From NCBI GenBank assembly GCA_026413865.1, contig JAOAKB010000003.1, positions 1-32,479 of the forward strand: a stretch of DNA of 32,479 nt, read 5' to 3'. Position 1 is the stretch's first letter; every line of letters starts with the position of its first letter. The notes under the pieces were generated by a model. That model did not search any database. It saw nothing but the letters and a program-made list of their open reading frames with translations, and had not been told where the DNA came from. Below are positions 10,905 to 28,550 of this stretch, one piece after another. The DNA is from Nitrososphaeria archaeon. GTDB lineage: Archaea > Thermoproteota > Nitrososphaeria > JACIWG01. The position numbers were made by a program, and so were the translations under genes.

Positions 10905-11540
10905 ATGCCTCAATTAAAGGCTACTCGAAGTGAACTTCTAAGGCTAAAAAAGAGATTACAAGCTGCAAAAAGAGGGCAAGAACTTTTACAGCAAAAACTT
11001 GATGTCTTACTAATTGAACTGTCGAAGTACGTAAGAGAATATGTTGAGCAATCTAAAAAAGTCTCCTTCTCTCTAAGAGAAGTTTATAATGCCGTAATGA
11101 CTATTAAAGTTTTCTCTAATCAGCAGAGCTTCTATAATTTTGTAAACTTAATGCGAGGTGCTTTAGAAGCTGAGGTTACATTTAACTCTGTTATGGGCAT
11201 ATCTTTTCCACAAATTGTTATCTCTCAAAAGAATTCTTTTACAAATTTTTATTCCACTGTTTTAAATCTTCTTCCTACATCAGAAAATGTGTTCTACGAA
11301 ACAGAAAAGGTTATTACCGCGCTAATAAAGTTAATTGAGCTTCAACAGATAATTTTAGCATTAGCGGAAGCAGTTCGATCAACAAAAATCCGAGTTAATT
11401 CACTAAAATATTATGTAATCCCTTCAATGGAAAGGGCTATACTATTCATCTCACTTCGAATAAGTGAAATGGAACGAGAAGAATTCTATAGAATTAAAAA
11501 GATTAAAAGTAAAATTTCAAAATCCGAGATGTCTCTTTGA
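10905..11540 (+). CDS. atpD: A-type ATP synthase subunit D
   Basis: Subunit D is the long antiparallel coiled-coil central stalk that turns within the A3B3 head. The N-terminal ATRSELLRLKKRLQAAKRG and the C-terminal RVNSLKYYVIPSMERAILFI match the family ('RRVNALE...IP....I'). The 211-aa length is normal. The gene follows atpB by one base, and its stop overlaps the TTG start of ksgA. Confidence 0.95.
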   Translation: MPQLKATRSELLRLKKRLQAAKRGQELLQQKLDVLLIELSKYVREYVEQSKKVSFSLREVYNAVMTIKVFSNQQSFYNFVNLMRGALEAEVTFNSVMGISFPQIVISQKNSFTNFYSTVLNLLPTSENVFYETEKVITALIKLIELQQIILALAEAVRSTKIRVNSLKYYVIPSMERAILFISLRISEMEREEFYRIKKIKSKISKSEMSL

Positions 11541-12298
11541 GCGGAGGTAGAAGATTAGGACAAAATTTTATTGTAAATCCTTTTTATATAGCACGTTTAC
11601 TTCTATTATCTGATATTAAATCAGATGATATAGTGCTTGAAATCGGAACAGGTTATGGAGAGTTAACTAAAAAATTATGTGAAAAAGCGAATATTGTTAT
11701 TTCTTATGAAATAGATAAAAAATTATTTAAAAATAGTCAAAAGAGGCTTACCAAATATAATAACTTAATATTGATTAATGGTGATGCCTTAAAGACAAAT
11801 TACATGTTTAATAAAGTTGTATCAAATTTACCCTTTTATATTTCTAAAAGATTTATATATTGGCTTATAACAAAATCCTTTACTTCTGCAACCGTTACAT
11901 TACAAAAAGATTTTGTTGAAAAATTAATTGCCCAACCTTCATCAAAAAATTATAAAGCTATTTCAGTTATAGCTCAACTTGCTTTTAAAATAAATATTTA
12001 TGATAAGATTCCTCCTACAGCCTTTTATCCTATTCCAAAAGTTTTTTCTTACATTGTAAAATTTGAACCAAAAAATCAATTTGTATTGAATGATAGTTTA
12101 ATTAAAATTATAAATTTTATCTTCACATTTAGAGGAAAAAAAGTAAGAACAATGATAAAGCATTTAAGTAAAAACAACTTTTATAATGTAGAAAGAGAGT
12201 GTAAAAATTTAAATATAAATGTGAATGTAGAACACTTTACACCCCAAGAATGTCTTTATATAGCAAAAATTTTATTAAATCAAAAACTTTTTTCATGA
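11537..12298 (+). CDS. ksgA: 16S rRNA adenine dimethyltransferase KsgA/Dim1
   Basis: The enzyme dimethylates two adjacent adenosines near the 3' end of 16S rRNA using S-adenosylmethionine. Motifs seen: LGQNFIVNP at the N-terminus, VLEIGTGYGELTKKL (SAM site, about residues 34-48), and the catalytic NLPFYIS near residue 97. The 253-aa length is close to the family's. The TTG start overlaps the atpD TGA (TTGA), and the stop overlaps the next gene's ATG (ATGA), so it is translated within the ATPase operon. Confidence 0.93.
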   Translation: MSGGRRLGQNFIVNPFYIARLLLLSDIKSDDIVLEIGTGYGELTKKLCEKANIVISYEIDKKLFKNSQKRLTKYNNLILINGDALKTNYMFNKVVSNLPFYISKRFIYWLITKSFTSATVTLQKDFVEKLIAQPSSKNYKAISVIAQLAFKINIYDKIPPTAFYPIPKVFSYIVKFEPKNQFVLNDSLIKIINFIFTFRGKKVRTMIKHLSKNNFYNVERECKNLNINVNVEHFTPQECLYIAKILLNQKLFS

Positions 12299-12834
12299 AC
12301 ATGTACTTGCCTGCAGAAGATACCTTTTTACTGATAAGAGGGCTAGATTCATATAATAATTTAGGTAAGGTTTTAGAAATCGGTCTTGGATCCGGAAAAG
12401 TTGCAGAATTGATTAATGAAAGATCAGAATTTTATGTTGGTTGTGATATAAACTTTAATGTTTTAAAAGAATTTAAAACCAAAAATGTATTTAATTTAAA
12501 AATTGATCTTGTTTGCTGCGACTCTGCCTCATGCTTTAGAAGCCTTTCTTTTGATACTATTATTTTTAATCCCCCTTATCTTCCATCAGAATCAATTGAA
12601 GATATTACAATTGATGGTGGGTATGAAGGTTGTGAGGTTACCATAGCTTTTTTAAAAAACTCTTTTAGGCTATTAAAGGTTAATGGTTTAATCTTTTTTA
12701 TTGCATCAACACTTTCAAATTTATCTAAAATTACCAGTTTTTTGAAGGAAAACAATTTTAGTTATGAAGAAATATTAAGAGAAAAATTTTTGTTTGAGCA
12801 TATCATACTCTATAAATGTATGAAGTTAGCGTGA
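12295..12834 (+). CDS. Mtq2/HemK2-type protein methyltransferase (probable release factor glutamine methylase)
   Basis: Archaeal and eukaryotic relatives methylate the GGQ glutamine of release factor aRF1/eRF1. The protein begins MYLPAEDTFLLIRGL, has the SAM-binding VLEIGLGSGKVAEL near residue 25 and the substrate motif IIFNPPYLPSE near residue 84. At 179 aa it is short, lacking the bacterial PrmC N-terminal domain, as expected for the Mtq2 group. I chose the ATG that overlaps the ksgA stop (ATGA). Substrate identity is by family only. Confidence 0.85.
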   Translation: MNMYLPAEDTFLLIRGLDSYNNLGKVLEIGLGSGKVAELINERSEFYVGCDINFNVLKEFKTKNVFNLKIDLVCCDSASCFRSLSFDTIIFNPPYLPSESIEDITIDGGYEGCEVTIAFLKNSFRLLKVNGLIFFIASTLSNLSKITSFLKENNFSYEEILREKFLFEHIILYKCMKLA

Positions 12835-13917
12835 TCTTATTTCAACTATATCACCATCTTCTAGTATAAAATATCTGCCAACCTTTAATTCTTCTCCATT
12901 TCTATTAAGCTTTGCATATTGGAAATTTTTAGCCATTTCCTTATGAATAATTTTTGCAACATCTATTACTGCCTTCCCTTTTTCAATCAACAAAGGTCGT
13001 TCTGCTACAATTCCATCTTTTCTCCTTGTATAAATTCTTATTATTCCAAGTATTTCAAGAATTTTTTTTAAAAATTCTTTTTTCTCAAAAAATATATTTA
13101 GATTACATATTCCTGTATAATATTTTTTTATTTCTTTCTCTTGTTCTATGTTATTGCATAAAATTATTGCAGGTTTGCTAACTTGTCCAAAAATAGCAGT
13201 CTCCAAATCTTCTAAAGTTGTTTCAATTGATACTTTTATAATTCCATTAACTATATTGTATTCTCTAAGAAAATTTTTTATTTCCTCTTCTGTAATGAAC
13301 TTTGATTTGCCAACAATTCTAATCCCCCCTTCTGTGGTTCTTTCGATTTTAACCTCTTTTTTTCTGGCATTTATTATTATATTATTCTGTTCAAGCCATG
13401 AAATTAATTCGTTGAAATAGCTTGCATAGTTCGTTTTGGGTAAAATTATTAAAAATAAGTCTGCATTATAAAGGAGATTGCTGAATTTTTTTTGCTTTTC
13501 TTCGCCAATTGATTTATCGAATGGACACAAGAGTATCTGCAAAAGTATTGAATCAATCTTTAGTGTGCCAATCTGAGGTCTTGTATATACATCAAACTGA
13601 TCGACCTTTAATCCTATAACTTTTTCAAAAAATTCTAATGTATCATAAAAAGTTCCTAAAATTGTAACCTGTATGTCTCCCTCTTTTTTTACACTCCAAA
13701 TGTTAATTACTTTTCCATGTTTTTTCTTTTTATTCTCAATTTCTTCTTCGAGCTTTTTTATTTGTCTTTTTATCTGTACTTCTAGTCTTTCAGTAGCTTT
13801 ATGCTTTGGAAATGAGCTATAAAATTGTTTAAGTAGCTCAAGTTTTTCTTCTGGCTCTTTAGCCATCATTGCTTTAGCCCATATTGCCTTTGCTTTTGCA
13901 GGTAAGTTTGTAACCAT
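12826..13917 (-). CDS. DRG-like protein with degenerate GTPase domain and a C-terminal TGS domain
   Basis: The layout follows developmentally regulated GTP-binding (DRG) proteins. A basic N-terminal coiled coil (FPKHKATERLEVQIKRQIKK, residues 36-55) precedes a GTPase-like fold. However, the P-loop position reads VTILGTFYDTLEFF (residues 84-97) with no GxxxxGKS, the DxPG position reads LLCPFDKS, and the NKxD position reads LCNNIEQE. Residues about 305-363 form a TGS domain ending YFILEDGDIVEIRSR. It probably cannot bind GTP normally and may act as an RNA or ribosome adaptor. The ATG at 13917 has a GGGGG ribosome binding site; it overlaps the trmJ end by 44 bases. An earlier TTG at 13950 is less likely. 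Confidence 0.8.
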   Translation of the reverse strand: MVTNLPAKAKAIWAKAMMAKEPEEKLELLKQFYSSFPKHKATERLEVQIKRQIKKLEEEIENKKKKHGKVINIWSVKKEGDIQVTILGTFYDTLEFFEKVIGLKVDQFDVYTRPQIGTLKIDSILLQILLCPFDKSIGEEKQKKFSNLLYNADLFLIILPKTNYASYFNELISWLEQNNIIINARKKEVKIERTTEGGIRIVGKSKFITEEEIKNFLREYNIVNGIIKVSIETTLEDLETAIFGQVSKPAIILCNNIEQEKEIKKYYTGICNLNIFFEKKEFLKKILEILGIIRIYTRRKDGIVAERPLLIEKGKAVIDVAKIIHKEMAKNFQYAKLNRNGEELKVGRYFILEDGDIVEIRSR

Positions 13918-14635
13918 CGTTTTCCCCCTTTTGTAAAAATGCTTTATCAATCCTACTGAATGCTGTTAATAGTAATCTTGCCTCTTTGTCACTGAGCACA
14001 CTCTTTCCTATAAAGTTTCTAAAGGCTCTAGTTATCAATCTGATTTTATGTGGTGGAAGATTTGTCCTACTAACTAATATTTTTAATTTTTCTATCAATA
14101 ATTCTTTAGTCTTCTTATCTGCCATCTTAAACTTGCCCTCTTTTTTATATGCAATCTTTTGGAAAATTTCATAAAAGATAATAGTTCCTGCCATAGCCAC
14201 ATTTAATGTAGGGTATTCTTGACTCGAAGGAATAGTTACTACTGCATCACATTCTTCTAACTCTTGATTTGATAAGCCATGACTTTCTCTTCCAAGTAAT
14301 ACTGCTACCTTTCCTTTTGCATTTGAAATTATGTTAGCTAATTGAGCCGGTGTAATGGTTATCCTTAACACATTTGTTGAACGCTTAGCAGATATCGCTG
14401 TAGTTCCATAAATTAAGTTAAATCTTTTCTTCACCTCTTCAAATGAAGTTAAAATTTTTGCATTATCTAATATATCTTGTGCATTTGCAGCGATTTTTCT
14501 GGCAAACTCTCCTATCTCGTCTTTTGGCCTAATAAGGTAAAGTTCTTTTAATCCAAAATTTTTCATAGCCCTTGCTACTGCACCAATATTTCCTTGATTT
14601 TCAGGTTCAATCATAATGATTGCAATTTCTGGCAT
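13874..14635 (-). CDS. trmJ: tRNA 2'-O-methyltransferase TrmJ (SPOUT family)
   Basis: TrmJ methylates the ribose of nucleotide 32 in the tRNA anticodon loop. Diagnostic blocks are MIEPENQGNIGAVARAMKNF (residues 8-27), LIYGTTAIS near 93, VAVLLGRESHGLSNQELE near 129 and IPSSQEYPTLNVAMAG near 155, which together make the SPOUT knot and SAM site. The 253-aa length matches the family, including a helical C-terminal extension. It is the first of two overlapping minus-strand genes and is divergent from L10e. Confidence 0.9.
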   Translation of the reverse strand: MPEIAIIMIEPENQGNIGAVARAMKNFGLKELYLIRPKDEIGEFARKIAANAQDILDNAKILTSFEEVKKRFNLIYGTTAISAKRSTNVLRITITPAQLANIISNAKGKVAVLLGRESHGLSNQELEECDAVVTIPSSQEYPTLNVAMAGTIIFYEIFQKIAYKKEGKFKMADKKTKELLIEKLKILVSRTNLPPHKIRLITRAFRNFIGKSVLSDKEARLLLTAFSRIDKAFLQKGENDGYKLTCKSKGNMG

Positions 14636-14706
14636 ATTCCCCTAATTAGAATTGTCCTGGTACAATAATTTAAATATTGGTGCTACATCGGGGGGAGTGA
14701 TTGATA
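14636..14706. promoter_or_regulatory. Divergent promoter of trmJ and rpL10e
   Basis: AATTTAAATATT at 14667-14678 is a near-palindromic TATA region usable in both directions. The plus strand then has GGGGGAGTGAT (14691-14701), a strong ribosome binding site that sets the L10e start at the ATG at 14707 rather than the TTG at 14701. Confidence 0.5.
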
Positions 14707-15216
14707 ATGCGTGGGAAAAATTATCGCCATCCTACAGGAATGCCATATACCAGAAGGGAATTCGTAGGTGGTGTACCGCATCCTAAAATAGCAAAGTTTT
14801 CTTTAGGTAATCCTAATGGTGATTATGATGTTGAACTTCAACTAATTTCTTGTGCAAATGTTCAAGTGAGGCATAATGCTCTTGAAGCAGCAAGGGTTGC
14901 TGCAAACAAAAAGATACAAGAAATCGGAGAATCTAACTACTATTTATTAGTTAAAAAATATCCGCATGTCATACTAAGGGAAAATAAGATGATTGCAACA
15001 GCTGGTGCTGACCGTCTTCAAGAAGGTATGCGCCGTGCTTTTGGAAAACCAGTTGGTTTAGCTGCACGAGTAAAAATAGATGATATAATTATGTTGATAA
15101 GAGTTAAATCCAGTAATATTAATAAGGCAAAAGAAGCATTGGAGGTTGCTTCTTCTAAGCTACCAATGAAAACTAAAATAAATGTTGTTGAACTAAAAAA
15201 ACTTTCAACCAATTGA
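14707..15216 (+). CDS. rpl10e: 50S ribosomal protein L10e (uL16)
   Basis: This is the archaeal/eukaryotic form of L16, which sits at the central protuberance by the A and P sites. Diagnostic blocks are NYRHPTGMPYTRREFVGGVP near the start, VRHNALEAARVAANKKI near residues 55-71, and GADRLQEGMRRAFGKPVG, then AARVKIDDIIMLIRV. The protein is 169 aa from the ATG, a usual size. It is a single gene convergent on the flavoprotein, with a 12-base tail overlap. Confidence 0.95.
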   Translation: MRGKNYRHPTGMPYTRREFVGGVPHPKIAKFSLGNPNGDYDVELQLISCANVQVRHNALEAARVAANKKIQEIGESNYYLLVKKYPHVILRENKMIATAGADRLQEGMRRAFGKPVGLAARVKIDDIIMLIRVKSSNINKAKEALEVASSKLPMKTKINVVELKKLSTN

Positions 15217-16515: not shown

Positions 16516-16580
16516 AGCTAATTTTATAAGACAAATGTTCAATTAAATCTTTTTTTATTTAACCTACTATATGGCTCTTG
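16516..16580. promoter_or_regulatory. Divergent promoters of the flavoprotein and YchF-like genes
   Basis: ATTTAATT on the minus strand (16541-16548) and TTTTATTTAAC on the plus strand (16553-16563) each lie 25-29 bases from a start codon (GTG 16515, ATG 16581). Neither start has a ribosome binding site, so both mRNAs are probably leaderless. Confidence 0.45.
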
Positions 16581-17783
16581 ATGCTAGTTGGAATTATTGG
16601 AAAAACAAATGTTGGTAAAAGTACTTTCTTTAGTGCTGCAACATTATTAAATGTACCTATTGGAAATTATCCTTTTACTACTATAAATCCCAATATTGGA
16701 ATAGGCTATTTTAGAACAAAGTGTGTGTGTAAAGAATTAGGTGTAAAAGATAATCCAACTACATCAATATGCTTAGATGGAGTTCGTTTGATCCCAGTAA
16801 AACTTATGGATGTAGCTGGCCTTGTTCCCGGTGCTGCCTCTGGTCGTGGTTTAGGAAACAAATTTCTTGATGATCTTAGACAAGCTGATGCTTTAATTCA
16901 TGTTGTGGATGCAGCTGGTTCCACAGATATTGAAGGTCATCCAGTAGCACCAGGTTCTCATGACCCCCTTGAAGATATACAATTTGTTGAAAATGAGCTT
17001 GATTTATGGTTCCAGAATATTTTAAAAAGTGATTGGCAAAGGATTTGTAAAGTAGGTGAATCCAATTTCGAAAACAGCATTAATCAACTTCAACAAAAAT
17101 TATCCGGTCTCTCAATAACAAGAGCATATATATATAAAGCGATAGAAGATTGTGGTTTATTAAATAAAAAATTTTCTAGTTGGAATGATCAAAATATCAT
17201 GATGTTTGTTCGCCGTCTTAGAGAGTTGTCTAAGCCTATAGTAATTGCAGCAAATAAAATTGACCTCTTTCCAGCATCTTTAAATTATGAAAAAATTAAA
17301 TCGACGGGTAGACCTTGCTTACCATGCTCCGCTGAAGCGGAATTAGTATTAAGAAGGGCGTCCGAAAAAAAGTTAATAGAATATGTACCCGGTAATTCTG
17401 ATTTTAAAATAGTATCTTCCCAATTAAATGAACAGCAGAAGAAAGCCCTAGAATTGATAAGAGAAAGAGTTCTAAGAAAATGGGGTACTACAGGTGTCCA
17501 AGATATTATTAATTTTACATTTAAAGAGATGTTGCAGCTAATCACAGTTTATCCTGTTGAAGATGAAAATTCACTTTCTGATAAAAAGGGAAATGTATTA
17601 CCTGAAGCTTATCTGATAAAAAAGGGTTCTACAGCTAAAGATTTAGCATATAAAATACATAGTGATCTAGGTGAAGGTTTCCTATATGCGATAGACGTCA
17701 AACGTAATATGCGAATAGGCGCTGAACATATTCTTTCTGATGGAGATATTATAAAAATAGTATCAAGCAGGGCTAGAGGCTAA
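16581..17783 (+). CDS. YchF/Ola1-like Obg-family GTPase with a TGS domain
   Basis: This is a translation-associated P-loop NTPase. G1 is IIGKTNVGKST near residues 5-15, followed by the family hallmark NYPFTTINPN. G3 is MDVAGLVPGAASGRGLGNKF, and G4 is AANKIDLF, with the NKxD of a true GTPase rather than the NMxE that gives Ola1 its ATP preference. The C-terminus is a TGS domain (AYLIKKGSTAKDLAYKIH ... HILSDGDIIKI). The 400-aa length is normal for archaeal members. The ATG at 16581 lies 25 bases after a TATA box, supporting a leaderless start. Confidence 0.9.
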   Translation: MLVGIIGKTNVGKSTFFSAATLLNVPIGNYPFTTINPNIGIGYFRTKCVCKELGVKDNPTTSICLDGVRLIPVKLMDVAGLVPGAASGRGLGNKFLDDLRQADALIHVVDAAGSTDIEGHPVAPGSHDPLEDIQFVENELDLWFQNILKSDWQRICKVGESNFENSINQLQQKLSGLSITRAYIYKAIEDCGLLNKKFSSWNDQNIMMFVRRLRELSKPIVIAANKIDLFPASLNYEKIKSTGRPCLPCSAEAELVLRRASEKKLIEYVPGNSDFKIVSSQLNEQQKKALELIRERVLRKWGTTGVQDIINFTFKEMLQLITVYPVEDENSLSDKKGNVLPEAYLIKKGSTAKDLAYKIHSDLGEGFLYAIDVKRNMRIGAEHILSDGDIIKIVSSRARG

Positions 17784-18378: not shown

Positions 18379-19902
18379 CTATCCACCTAAAATTTCTCTA
18401 TATTTTTCTCTTACTATGGCTGGCCAATTTTCTTCTTTAAAACCTTTTTCTGCAAGGAATGCTGCAACCCATCTAGATACACCTAAACCTGTACAGCCTG
18501 TCCAAATTTCTAAATCCACTTCACTTTTAATTTTGAAGGAATCAACAAACTTTTTCTTATGAACAAAGCAACCTGCAACCTCAAGCCATTCAGAAGTCTC
18601 TCTTGGTCCCCTATATGGTAAGTATATCTCAATGTCATACGCCGGCACTTCCTTGCTATTATATGGGTCAAATTTTGCTGAACTTTCCTTCACATAAAAA
18701 GGTGCTGCAGCTGTCACTCTCCATTCTAAATCTAATATTTTATCTGCTACATTAATTCCTCTTTCTACAATTTCGTCTCTGATATTAACAACTTGTTCAG
18801 GAAGGCCCAGATAGGTTAATTCAATGCGCTGGAATTCTGTCACTCTAACGAGTCCTTCTACTCCCCCACCTTCCCATCTATATGTGTAGCCTGATGCATC
18901 ATAGTATTTAAGAGGTAATGTATCTGATTTATGTGTTATAACACTATAGTAGTACCAGAATGGTTCGCATTGTGCAGGCGCTAATACGTAAGCTGGATCT
19001 TTCAAAACCTTTTTTAATTCATCAATAGGTACTTCCTTTTTAAGTTTATATTCCAGTTTAAAATTGTCAAAGGCCTCAGGCTCTCTAGGCGGTGGACACA
19101 CATAGAACATACCTTCAGGTATACTATCAAAATATCCAGGCATCTTTCTCATGACTTCAAATGGTATTAACTTTGGTAGAAGAAAAGGCTTAAATCCTCC
19201 TTTCTTAGCTATTTCCTCAATTAGGATAGACTTTATTGTTTCAAAAAGGGCCGCGTATTTACTTGTGTATATAAATTGTCCCCTACCAGGAAACTGTACA
19301 ACCCACCCAAGCTCTAACCCAGTAATAAGGGGATCCCCATTAAATTCAATTCTTTTTTCTATAGATCTTCTAACTATTGGTTGAATTTGCTCGTAGGACA
19401 CATGTTTTTCTTTTGATACTTCTTCAATTAAATTAATTAGTCTATCAATTAAATTTCCTCTAAGATCCGCTTCTTCTAAATCCTCTAATTGTACTATCGT
19501 CCTATCTTTTTCAGAAATTATCTCCTTAACTTTAGGCATTGATTTAACTTTATTTACCGCTATCTCGTCTATATATTCAAATAATATGATTTTAAAATTT
19601 TTAGCTAACACCTTCCTAATTCCTATTTTTAATTTTTCTCCAAGCTCTTTAGCAAAAACTTTCTTTAATCTCAAAATGCCTATATGTGAACGAACTAAGT
19701 TTCCTGAATAAAGTACAACCTTTAATATATTTTCTGTCACTTTCCACTCTCCTATAAAACATGCATTCTCAGGGTCTTTTTCAGCGCCCTTTATTAAAAT
19801 CATTTTACTTTCATCTAGTTTTTCTTGTATTGTATTTTCTATTCTTTCATCGCTCTTGCTTAATATAAAGTAACCTTCAGTTTCTGTTTGTATTTTTCTC
19901 AT
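18379..19902 (-). CDS. serS: Serine--tRNA ligase, type 2 (methanogenic type)
   Basis: This enzyme charges tRNA-Ser. It is the rare zinc-dependent form, not the common SerRS. Zinc ligands fit Cys312 (APAQCEPFW), Glu361 (QRIELTYLG) and Cys470 (EIWTGCTGLG); the 49-residue gap between the first two equals that in the Methanosarcina enzyme. Class II motif 2 is present as YRWEGGGVEGLVRVTEFQRI. The N-terminal 170 residues are the distinct tRNA-binding domain of this type. The length of 507 aa is normal. The start overlaps pcc1 by 26 bases. Confidence 0.95.
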   Translation of the reverse strand: MRKIQTETEGYFILSKSDERIENTIQEKLDESKMILIKGAEKDPENACFIGEWKVTENILKVVLYSGNLVRSHIGILRLKKVFAKELGEKLKIGIRKVLAKNFKIILFEYIDEIAVNKVKSMPKVKEIISEKDRTIVQLEDLEEADLRGNLIDRLINLIEEVSKEKHVSYEQIQPIVRRSIEKRIEFNGDPLITGLELGWVVQFPGRGQFIYTSKYAALFETIKSILIEEIAKKGGFKPFLLPKLIPFEVMRKMPGYFDSIPEGMFYVCPPPREPEAFDNFKLEYKLKKEVPIDELKKVLKDPAYVLAPAQCEPFWYYYSVITHKSDTLPLKYYDASGYTYRWEGGGVEGLVRVTEFQRIELTYLGLPEQVVNIRDEIVERGINVADKILDLEWRVTAAAPFYVKESSAKFDPYNSKEVPAYDIEIYLPYRGPRETSEWLEVAGCFVHKKKFVDSFKIKSEVDLEIWTGCTGLGVSRWVAAFLAEKGFKEENWPAIVREKYREILGG

Positions 19903-25628: not shown

Positions 25629-26324
25629 ATGAGCAGCAAATTTACGTGCGTTAGATTGACGATAGATGGGGAAAGATTCGAACTTCTCGTTCGTCCAGAT
25701 CAAGCCTTAAACTATAAGATGGGGAAACAAATAGAACTTTCACAAATAGTTGGTATAGAGGAAATTTTTTCAGATGCCACTAAAGGTCTGCGAGTATCAG
25801 AAGAAAAGCTACAAAAATTTTTTAGGACAACAGATTTCTATAAGATTGCAGAGATTATATTAAAAAAGGGTGAACTACAACTTACGTTAGAGCAAAGAAG
25901 AAAGCTTATAGAAGAAAAGAAAAAAGCCATAATTTCTATATTATCGAAGAATTTTGTTGATCCTAGAACAAATACTCCACACCCTCCAACAAGATACGAG
26001 CAAGCATTGGAAGAAGCACATGTGTCAATTGATCCTTTTAAGTCGCCAGAAGAACAATTACAGAATATAGTTGATGCTTTACGACCTATTCTTCCACTTA
26101 AATCACAAAATTTAATTTTGAAGATAAATATTCCATCAAAATATTCTTCAAAATCTATTGGCTTACTCAAATCGTTTGGTAAATTTTTAAAGGAACAATG
26201 GCTCCCAGATGGAAGTTATATTGTTGAACTCGAAATCCCCGTTGGTCTTCATTCATCTTTAGTTGAAAAAGTTGGTTCATTAACCAAGGGAGAAGCTGAA
26301 ATTACAATTGTTGCGCGGAAGTGA
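25629..26324 (+). CDS. Ribosome maturation protein SBDS (Sdo1)
   Basis: SBDS works with an EF2-like GTPase to release anti-association factor aIF6 from new large subunits. The N-terminal FYSH domain shows [17 protein letters not shown], then [20 protein letters not shown] and [20 protein letters not shown] three-helix domain includes [20 protein letters not shown], and the ferredoxin-like C-terminus begins near residue 157. The 231-aa length is standard. The gene sits between psmA and rrp4, the conserved archaeal order. Confidence 0.95.
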
Positions 26325-26330
26325 GATCAT

Positions 26331-27008
26331 ATGGTTTTAGTTAGAACAAAGGTTTTACCTGGTGATTTATTACATGATTCTTATCAAGGACAACCCCCTC
26401 CGCATACATATAAATTAGGTAATAAATTGTTCTCTTTAAAAGTTGGTCTAGTTGAAATTGAGGGCAAAGAGGTAAAATTAATACCTTTAGCAGGTCCATA
26501 TATTCCAAGAGTTAATGACTTTGTTATTGGCAAAATTATAGATTTTGATGCTTTTTCATGGGATGTTGATATAAACTCGATTTATACTGCACACCTTCCA
26601 GCACAAGATGTATTTGGTAGAGACTTTTCACCACAAACACACTCCCTTACATCACAGTTCAAAGTTGGTGATATTTTGGCTGCCAAAATAGTATCATATG
26701 ATCGCACAAAGGACCCAGTATTGACTGTAAGGGATCATGGTTTAGGTAAAATAATAAATGGAGAACCAGTAAAGCTTTCCCCATCAAAGATACCTAGATT
26801 GATTGGAAAAAAGGGTTCAATGGCTAAAATTATAGAAAGTAAGACAAAAACAAAACTTATTATAGGCCAAAATGGAATCATTATTGTTCAAGGACCTTCC
26901 GAAGGTATAGTATTAGCTGCGAAGGCTATCCGTTTAATTGAAGAAAAAGCTCATGTACCATCGTTAACAAATATGATAAACGATCTATTAACAAAAGAGA
27001 GTGGTTAA
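26331..27008 (+). CDS. rrp4: Exosome RNA-binding cap subunit Rrp4
   Basis: Rrp4 sits on top of the exosome ring and feeds RNA into it. The N-terminal domain carries [20 protein letters not shown], the S1 domain spans [20 protein letters not shown] to [15 protein letters not shown], and a KH domain with the GxxG loop as [16 protein letters not shown] begins near residue 155. The length of 225 aa is normal. GTGAGATC precedes the ATG. Confidence 0.95.
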
Positions 27009-27009
27009 A

Positions 27010-27729
27010 ATGGGTAAATTGATAGATGAAAATGGTATAAGATTAGATGGAAGAAGATGGGATGAAATAAGACCTATAACAATTGAAATAGGGGTAATTA
27101 AAAATGCTGATGGCTCAGCATACATAGAATTTGGTAAGAATAAAATTATTGCAGCAGTATACGGCCCAAGAGAAGCCCATCCTAAACATCTTGCTTTACC
27201 TGATAAAGCTATTGTAAGATGCCGTTATCATATGGCTCCCTTTTCTACAGAAGAAAGAAAATCGCCACAACCTTCAAGAAGAGAAATAGAAATCTCGCTT
27301 GTCCTAAGAAGAGCAATGGAAAGTGCTATCTTTTTAGAGGAATATCCTAGATCAATAATTGACGTGTTTGTAGAAGTTTTACAATCAGACGGTGGCTCAA
27401 GATGCGCTAGTATTACTGCGGTTTCGGCAGCTTTGGCTGATAGTGGTATTTCCATGAGGGATCTTGTAGTGGGTTGTGCGGTTGGAAAAATTGATGGTCA
27501 AATTGTGCTAGATTTAAGTGATTATGAGGATAAGGAAGGCGAAGGTGATATGCCAGTAGCCTATATGCCAAATCTTGACAAAATTGTTCTCTTACAATTT
27601 GATGGCATATTTTCAGAAGAAGAGTTCAAAAAAGCAATTGACTTAGCTATTTTAGGTAATAAAAAGGTATATGAAATACTTAAAAAAGCTCTGATTGAAA
27701 AATATTTTAGTATGGTGGATGAAAAGTAA
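27010..27729 (+). CDS. rrp41: Exosome catalytic subunit Rrp41
   Basis: Rrp41 is the RNase PH-like phosphorolytic subunit that degrades RNA 3' to 5' and can add A-rich tails. Seen are [19 protein letters not shown], the RNA-binding [20 protein letters not shown], and the catalytic acid region [19 protein letters not shown]. The length of 239 aa is standard. The start is the ATG at 27010, one base after the rrp4 stop; the upstream GTG at 27001 is less likely. Confidence 0.96.
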
Positions 27730-28550
27730 TGTCAATCAAAAAATCTCCTATAATAGAAAATTTAAGAAAAACACAAATGATTGAATTACTGTCAAAAGAG
27801 AAACGTTTAGATGGGCGTTCCTTAATAGACTTTCGTCCTATAATAATAAAGGTTGGCGTAATACAAAAATCAAATGGCTCTGCAGAAGTTTCCATAGGCA
27901 ATACAAAGGTTGTAGCGGGAGTAAAAGTTGAAACTGGTTCTCCTTTTCCAGATACGCCTGATCAAGGTCTTTTAGTTGTTAATGCAGAATTTCTACCATT
28001 CTCTTCAGCATTAATTGAACCAGGCCCCCCAGACGAAGATGCGATCGAAGTTTCTAGAGTGGTCGATCGTGGTATTAGAGAATCACAAATGATAGATCTA
28101 AATGCTTTAGTGATAGAAACTGGAAAATTAGTTTATTGTGTATTTGTGGACATAAGTATATTAAACATGGACGGTAACATATTTGATGCCGCTTTTCTTT
28201 CAGCTGTTTCTGCTCTTTTAACAACAACTTTTGAAAGGAAAACGGTTAAAGGAGATGGAAATATTGAAGTTCAAAAATGTAAGTTGCCAACACGTTGTAT
28301 CCCAATATCAATTTCCTCTATTACTATAGGTGACAGTATACTTATTGATCCTACTGAAGAAGAAGAGTCAGTGCAAGATTCGAGACTAACCTTAACCTTT
28401 AATGATGAAGGTTATCTTTGTGCTGGACAAAAAGGTGGTTCTATGGGTATATCACGGGAGCAATTATTTAAAATAGTAGAACTTTCTAAGGCTAAGGCTG
28501 AGGAACTAAGAGTGCTTGTAAAAAAGGTGATAGAAAATGCCCAAATCTGA
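27729..28550 (+). CDS. rrp42: Exosome structural subunit Rrp42
   Basis: Rrp42 pairs with Rrp41 in the hexameric ring, is itself inactive but completes the active site. It shows KRLDGRSLIDFRPIIIKVGV, NAEFLPFSSALIEPGPPDED and VVDRGIRESQMIDLNALV; the acidic catalytic signature of Rrp41 is replaced by DPTEEEESVQDSRLTLTF, as expected. The length of 273 aa is normal. The ATG overlaps the rrp41 stop (TAATG). Confidence 0.96.
   Translation: MSIKKSPIIENLRKTQMIELLSKEKRLDGRSLIDFRPIIIKVGVIQKSNGSAEVSIGNTKVVAGVKVETGSPFPDTPDQGLLVVNAEFLPFSSALIEPGPPDEDAIEVSRVVDRGIRESQMIDLNALVIETGKLVYCVFVDISILNMDGNIFDAAFLSAVSALLTTTFERKTVKGDGNIEVQKCKLPTRCIPISISSITIGDSILIDPTEEEESVQDSRLTLTFNDEGYLCAGQKGGSMGISREQLFKIVELSKAKAEELRVLVKKVIENAQI

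Follow-up and report, generated by a model that had tools for sequence, protein, structure and literature searches.

Two papers on the DRGs describe these GTPases as highly conserved and their activity as a requirement in yeast (PMC8629797, PMC3510508). According to the first of these, a review, the G motifs show high conservation across DRG homologues, and a single copy may be present in archaea (PMC8629797). A gene on contig JAOAKB010000003.1 of a Nitrososphaeria archaeon, the 32,479 nucleotides of which are referred to here as the window, raises the question of what a DRG might do when its GTP-binding site has been lost. The initial annotation described its product as a DRG-like protein with degenerate GTPase motifs. 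A search of open-licence papers returned no report of degenerate archaeal DRGs.

The reading frame and its products

Shown in Table 1 are the coordinates of the gene, its parts, and its neighbors. The minus-strand frame runs uninterrupted for 363 codons from an ATG at position 13917 to a stop codon at 12826-12828. An in-frame TTG is found at 13950, and the conserved start is that at 13917. The N-terminal part displays the highest between-protein identity among the domains, and its PKHK.T sequence is conserved in both degenerate and intact members of the lineage described below as type II. The S5D2L domain is present between the G3 and G4 places, where the insertion is correctly positioned in the model and in the alignments; the Pfam family MMR_HSR1_Xtn (PF16897) matches residues 197-260 with an E-value of 9.7e-7, which is under the curated cut-off.

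Table 1. Features of the window discussed in the text.
Feature	Residues	Position	Strand	Basis or remark
Degenerate type II DRG gene		12826..13917	-	363 aa; stop codon included in span
N-terminal helical (HTH-type) part	1-67	13717..13917	-	model helices 7-18, 22-35, 40-67
First G-domain part	80-183	13369..13680	-	model, alignment
G1/P-loop place, GTFYDTL	88-94	13636..13656	-	model, helix 1 from residue 90
G3 (DxxG) place, LLCPF	129-133	13519..13533	-	alignment
S5D2L-like insertion between G3 and G4 places	184-245 (approximate bounds)	13183..13368	-	sub-threshold MMR_HSR1_Xtn, model, analogy with Rbg1
Second G-domain part, least conserved	246-290	13048..13182	-
G4 (NKxD) place, NNIE	255-258	13144..13155	-	alignment
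TGS domain, one loop shortened	291-363	12829..13047	-	Pfam TGS, 46.3 bits, 4.3e-12 (cut-off 22.2)
KsgA-like gene (presumed)		11537..12298	+	named from sequence
HemK2/MTQ2-family methyltransferase gene		12250..12834	+	convergent, 9-base overlap; TIGR00537 98.3 bits (cut-off 87)
TrmJ-family RNA methyltransferase gene		13874..14635	-	upstream, 44-base overlap; TIGR00050 211.8 bits (cut-off 167.15)
uL16/L10e-like ribosomal protein gene (presumed)		14701..15216	+	named from sequence
YchF-related GTPase gene, P-loop and TGS intact, not a DRG		16578..17783	+	PRK09602/NF007171 572.5 bits (cut-off 387)

Overall fold and descent

An AlphaFold2 model of the window protein, calculated with an alignment of 64 sequences, has a pLDDT of 91.6 and a pTM of 0.73. 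Its top Foldseek matches are Rbg1 (5.8e-23), the Rbg1-ribosome complex, and Rbg2, followed by YchF proteins. A second structural aligner gives Z-scores of 19.0 for Rbg1 (rmsd 6.6 over 281 residues), 15.6 for Rbg2, and 14.1 or less for YchF proteins. The overlay on Rbg1, the best match among solved structures, indicates that the GTPase fold has been kept. According to the initial annotation, the N-terminal helix and the whole fold align with DRG GTPases, and this holds for most of the length; the superposition on Rbg1 spans model residues 74-363, and the N-terminal helices, which lie outside of it, are tentatively assigned to the HTH by a sequence match from residue 25 onward and by the predicted helices given in Table 1.

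The sequence comparisons lead to the same relatives. With phmmer, the window protein matches yeast Rbg2/Rbg1 from residue 25 to its end (4.1e-8), and a profile of 14 sequences matches Rbg2 at 1.3e-34 over residues 37-358, whereas the best YchF type is reached at 2.1e-9 and over the TGS domain only. The homology to Rbg is both better and longer than that to other Obg-family members, which points to descent from a DRG. The YchF model PRK09602 covers the TGS part alone with 23.1 bits against a cut-off of 387, and the protein thus falls outside the YchF/OLA1 family.

A model of an intact relative, L079 (pLDDT 88.8), served as a control. Strand 1 is formed by residues 82-88 in both models, and helix 1 begins at residue 94 in L079 and at residue 90 in the window protein. 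The gap between strand and helix is accordingly five residues in the former versus one in the latter. Because in the model the turn that would hold the phosphates is cut from five residues to one, the P-loop is absent as a structure, and not merely as a motif.

Loss of the GTPase motifs

The Pfam GTPase domain MMR_HSR1 has no match in the window protein up to an E-value of 1. It is matched in 53 of the 64 aligned sequences. Those without it number 11, namely the window protein plus ten degenerate relatives, and these ten, when scanned separately, gave no match up to an E-value of 0.1. In the alignment with intact relatives, the GTFYDTL sequence of the window protein stands at the place of GxxxxGK[S/T], LCPF at that of G3 (DLPG in type I proteins and EAPS in L079), and NNIE at that of NKID. 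The P-loop, DxxG, and NKxD motifs are therefore degenerate, as first annotated, and the protein lacks the intact G1, G3, and G4 motifs of a DRG GTPase. As judged from its sequence and the predicted structure, the window protein is a pseudo-GTPase relative of the DRG/Rbg GTPases, that is to say, a DRG by descent without the defining GTPase motifs.

Purifying selection acts on the gene, which is not decaying. Its dN/dS values, calculated by the NG86 method against three congeners, are 0.117, 0.084, and 0.098, and in each comparison the second G part has the highest value. Full-length open frames are found in these three congeneric genomes (77-87% identity) and in one confamilial genome (59%), and no internal stops occur among the listed matches in the genomes of relatives. 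An intact P-loop hidden in another frame by a sequencing error, considered at the outset, is not borne out by the open frames in these four relatives.

A distinct lineage with repeated loss of G1

By sequence, the window protein falls into a separate archaeal DRG lineage, the sampled members of which mostly keep G1 elsewhere. It is referred to here as type II, a name coined in this work for proteins with the N-terminus [V/P]TNLP...PKHKGT; type I denotes the canonical DRG. One search for related loci kept the best 80 of 571 confirmed matches, a set skewed to the query, and the survey as a whole covered archaeal relatives. Across all loci retrieved, removal of identical proteins left 153 distinct ones, 15 of type I and 138 of type II. 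The state of G1, as read by pattern matching within residues 61-130 of the trimmed proteins, is intact in all 15 type I proteins and in 83 of the 138 type II proteins; 14 others carry arginine in place of lysine, and the survey of archaea for the degenerate form yielded 41 type II proteins without G1. These 41 comprise 32 from Nitrososphaeria, eight from Sulfolobaceae/f26, and L144, and both G3 and G4 are absent in every one. The G3 glycine is found in 15/15 type I proteins versus 5/83 G1-bearing type II proteins, and 63 of the latter 83 have NKxD or TKxD. Given the rarity of the G3 glycine and the incomplete G4, the lineage was moving away from the textbook site ahead of the full losses.

In a careful tree of 56 rows, calculated as were all trees with the G-motif columns included, the 22 G1-less rows require three changes, and a single change sufficed in 0 of 200 bootstrap trees. 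They comprise two clades, one of 17 Nitrososphaeria rows (100/97) and one of four Sulfolobaceae rows (100/100), with L144 standing on its own. A single loss for all degenerate forms was rejected, the one-clade tree having a p-AU of 9e-5 in a comparison that involves long branches and a group defined by the trait itself. The tree points to at least three losses of G1: in Nitrososphaeria, in Sulfolobaceae, and in one relative of the Thermofilaceae. The replacement of lysine by arginine requires two further changes.

Several of these proteins deserve mention in their own right. L144 (genome G090, family f34) reads GYPGPGRE where its relatives have GLPASGKT, and as it is 67% identical to a G1-bearing relative, its loss is recent. 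The GxxxxGRS forms, with arginine for the P-loop lysine, are L089, L099, L102, L106, L107, L113, L116, L120, L121, L125, and L130 from Bathyarchaeota, L126 and L128 from Methanodesulfokora, and L167. Their G3 place reads EAPA or EAPP in 14/14, and NKxD or TKxD is kept in 10/14; they may be intermediates on the way to the loss or have a modified nucleotide site. The shortest degenerate forms, L010, L012, L188, and L189 of family f6, measure 322-324 residues, and their deletions lie in the G parts, with the N-terminal part and TGS domain largely kept.

The only DRG found in the genome

Among 110 genomes of the class searched at an E-value of 1e-30, 71 have type I, 32 have type II, none has both, and seven have neither. 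Type I is distributed over families f3, f4, f9, and f58, and type II over f1, f2, f5, f6, f7, and f8 (31 genomes) plus f57 (genome G280). The degenerate state was confirmed for 30 of the 31, with L177 and L181 counted through their identical counterparts L134 and L075, respectively; the one remaining is G023, whose type II gene is divided between two contigs. The copy in G280 is intact, identical to L133, and groups with Desulfurococcales/Sulfolobales forms; as contamination amounts to 4% in this MAG, the gene may have been transferred or may be a contaminant. Two of the seven genomes with neither type, 96-98% complete, belong to f3, which from its genome type we take to be a family of ammonia oxidizers. 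Three further genomes of f2, namely G029, G274, and G276 (genus g19; 72-74% complete), likewise have neither type at 1e-30, perhaps through total loss of DRG or through incompleteness.

Across 250 genomes of the phylum, type I was detected at 1e-110 in 40, all in f3 or f9, and in 12 the type II profile found nothing stronger than weak matches (8e-10 to 2e-4, or about 1e-11). Each of the 12 named genomes reached through the loci has one long DRG-family match. The genome of the window is a draft of 102 contigs that is 77% complete, and no second, intact DRG was found in it or in its relatives, including the single-contig genomes G010 and G211. From the class, phylum, and named-genome counts, no GTPase-competent DRG was found in the lineage of the window, and the genome of the window yielded no DRG-family gene other than the window gene. 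The canonical gene of the type I loci (L017-L025 and others, from f3, f4, f9, and f58) resides elsewhere in the genome and never occurs together with type II. Eight of these loci (L017-L021 and L023-L025), 5.5-7 kb in length, are devoid of window-type neighbors, as expected if a different gene had taken over rather than the resident one having changed in place.

Conservation of the individual domains

The identities of the separate domains were compared at a matched whole-protein identity of 0.30-0.45, using 385 degenerate Nitrososphaeria pairs and 1927 G1-bearing type II pairs. In this bin the values for degenerate versus G1-bearing proteins are 0.579 versus 0.554 for the HTH, 0.384 versus 0.369 for S5D2L, 0.407 versus 0.460 for TGS, and 0.236 versus 0.386 for the first G part. 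In the 0.45-0.65 bin, the TGS identities are 0.496 versus 0.557 and those of the first G part 0.386 versus 0.460. Constraint has gone from the G domain and has been largely retained on those domains whose counterparts in Rbg2 contact the ribosome and tRNA (PMC8040806). Residues such as Trp 74 and Arg 339 are invariant in 32/32 degenerate Nitrososphaeria proteins and are not so in the intact ones.

The TGS domain was initially called intact. The domain and its fold are indeed kept (Table 1), but one loop has been shortened and the WGxS stretch is gone. This loop measures 12-14 residues in the 32 degenerate Nitrososphaeria proteins, as compared to 15-16 in 78/83 G1-bearing type II proteins and 15 in 15/15 type I proteins; it is not shortened in the eight degenerate proteins of the Sulfolobaceae type. 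The WGxS stretch, absent in the degenerate Nitrososphaeria proteins, is also missing in 34/83 G1-bearing type II proteins and in 14/14 of the forms with arginine.

The gene neighborhood

The neighbors of the DRG gene look translational. Homologues of the gene taken to be KsgA-like adjoin the DRG gene in relatives, and those of the presumed uL16/L10e-like gene lie near it. The neighborhood set consists of 96 loci with unequal flanks and with some genomes represented twice (L008/L059, L011/L060); TrmJ is matched in 19 and adjacent in 17. In the five f1 loci, that of the window included, it lies upstream on the same strand and overlaps or abuts the DRG gene. In nine others (L011 and L060 represent one genome) it is the immediate neighbor in divergent orientation, and in two Baldrarchaeota it follows an intact type II gene on the same strand. 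One Bathyarchaeote has it in convergent orientation, and in two loci it is 4.3-4.4 kb away. The link with trmJ is genuine, yet weak. The reported cotranscription with trmJ finds its counterpart in family f1, where the genes overlap or abut and are co-directional, but not in other degenerate relatives, where they are divergent, or in Baldrarchaeota, where the neighbor is an intact DRG. A general trmJ operon is unsupported, given the varied side and orientation. The occurrence of trmJ beside intact type II genes makes the linkage look like an old neighborhood that predates the loss. In the Baldrarchaeote L104, KsgA, HemK, an intact type II DRG, TrmJ, and uL16 are found in one stretch, such that the window gene seems to sit where an intact type II gene formerly did.

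Three other observations pertain to the window. A serine-tRNA ligase of the MJ type is encoded at 18379-19902 on the minus strand (TIGR00415, 6e-126; PRK00960, 7.1e-151; both under their cut-offs), which to our knowledge is unexpected outside the methanogens. A run of genes at 25629-28550 on the plus strand presumably encodes proteins resembling SBDS, Rrp4, Rrp41, and Rrp42 of the exosome, as named from sequence. No plasmid match was obtained for window positions 1-25000.

Proposed role

We propose, with slightly better than even confidence, that the window protein is a nucleotide-free pseudo-GTPase DRG that replaces, rather than accompanies, a GTP-driven DRG and that acts at the ribosomal A site. 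In the yeast Gcn1-disome structure, the TGS domain of Rbg2 contacts helices 5/15 of the small subunit, its G and HTH domains contact the stalk base, the sarcin-ricin loop, and H89, and its S5D2L domain contacts the A-site tRNA (PMC8040806). By analogy with Rbg1 and Rbg2, the window protein would occupy the factor-binding site of the archaeal ribosome, with its TGS domain toward the small subunit, its HTH and G-fold toward the stalk base and sarcin-ricin region, and its S5D2L domain toward the A-site tRNA. It might thereby steady the A-site tRNA and help slow or stalled ribosomes through. Lacking a GTP cycle, it would act as a nucleotide-free wedge, going on and off by virtue of its affinity or of changes in the ribosome. 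The retention of the non-catalytic domains by selection favors such an A-site factor. The nucleotide-free role in tRNA or ribosome work suggested by the initial annotation would likewise agree with the sequence and the model.

There are points against this proposal, the chief of which comes from yeast. There, GTPase-inactive Rbg1 fails to rescue growth and a GTPase-domain mutant shows reduced ribosome binding (PMC8629797), and the GTPase activity is termed "absolutely required" (PMC3510508). Given this need, the loss of GTP could have meant the loss of the ribosomal role, and a GTP-less lineage must have another way onto and off the ribosome. It can be speculated that clade-fixed residues such as Trp 74 and Arg 339 could contribute to it. 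In addition, the TGS domain is somewhat less conserved than in the intact forms, and its loop is shortened in 32/32 degenerate Nitrososphaeria proteins.

The most serious alternative, albeit an unlikely one, is that the protein no longer uses the DRG site on the ribosome and has taken up a different task connected with translation, for instance in ribosome assembly or hibernation, or presents tRNA as a partner of TrmJ. The proximity of trmJ in 17/96 loci and its overlap in the window, the altered TGS loop, and the invariant residues are in keeping with this, but the side and orientation of trmJ vary, it also lies beside intact DRGs in Baldrarchaeota, and the HTH and S5D2L domains are conserved at least as well as in intact forms. 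It is improbable that the remodeled G-fold retains some unconventional mode of binding for a nucleotide or other ligand. Although the fold is kept and structural positions such as Pro 114, Gln 127, Pro 132, and Asp 153 are conserved in degenerate and intact forms alike, in the model a helix takes the place of the P-loop turn, G3 and G4 have disappeared along with G1 in all G1-less proteins, and the P-loop place has no common motif across the clade. The initial annotation also drew attention to a YchF-type GTPase nearby. That gene is real, and it belongs to a different subfamily, so it is not an intact twin. A GTPase acting in trans, for example this one at 2.7 kb, could supply the switch in a complex for which the window protein is the scaffold, but this seems quite improbable, as TGS matches indicate that the YchF-type gene is also present where the DRG is intact. 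Finally, a sequencing error or decaying pseudogene, to which the draft state of the genome might have pointed, is ruled out for practical purposes by the full-length frames in relatives, the dN/dS of 0.08-0.12, and the spread of degenerate forms over f1, f2, and f5-f8.

The sole DRG-family gene found, without a GTP site and under strong selection, amounts to a natural test of the need for GTP in this family, which eukaryotes share. The retention of a sole DRG with the GTP site dropped at least three times separates the ribosomal role from the contribution of GTP. Tentatively, and with somewhat less than even confidence, we suggest that archaeal DRG function has no need of GTP: the HTH, S5D2L, and TGS domains would form a clamp that reads tRNA and the ribosome, the GTP cycle would be a dispensable timer, and a nucleotide-free protein would be the sole DRG in whole lineages, including the Sulfolobaceae. 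The losses in the latter family include Metallosphaera and Aramenus, which are cultivable archaea, and thus the question moves into organisms that can be grown.

Comparison with known systems

The YchF/OLA1-type GTPases share the G-fold and the TGS domain with the window protein, but the sequence match is confined to TGS and the structural score is lower. Rbg1/DRG1 and Rbg2/DRG2 (PDB 4a9a, 7rr5, 7nrc) have the same order of domains, namely an HTH (a predicted one in the window protein), a G domain split by S5D2L, and a C-terminal TGS. Their identity with the window protein in the structural alignment is 21-23%; the latter differs in having no P-loop, G3, or G4, and in its shortened TGS loop. 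The G1-bearing type II proteins of Desulfurococcales, Thermoproteales, Baldrarchaeota, and Thermococcus share the TNLP/PKHKGT N-terminus and the domain order, occur as the lone DRG in each of the 12 named genomes, and in Baldrarchaeota have a neighborhood similar to that of the window; unlike the window protein, they keep GxxxxGK[S/T] and, for the most part, NKxD. The degenerate type II proteins of Sulfolobaceae/f26 are likewise without G1, G3, and G4 and have kept the other domains, but theirs is a separate loss, and they retain a TGS loop of normal length with the WGxS stretch.
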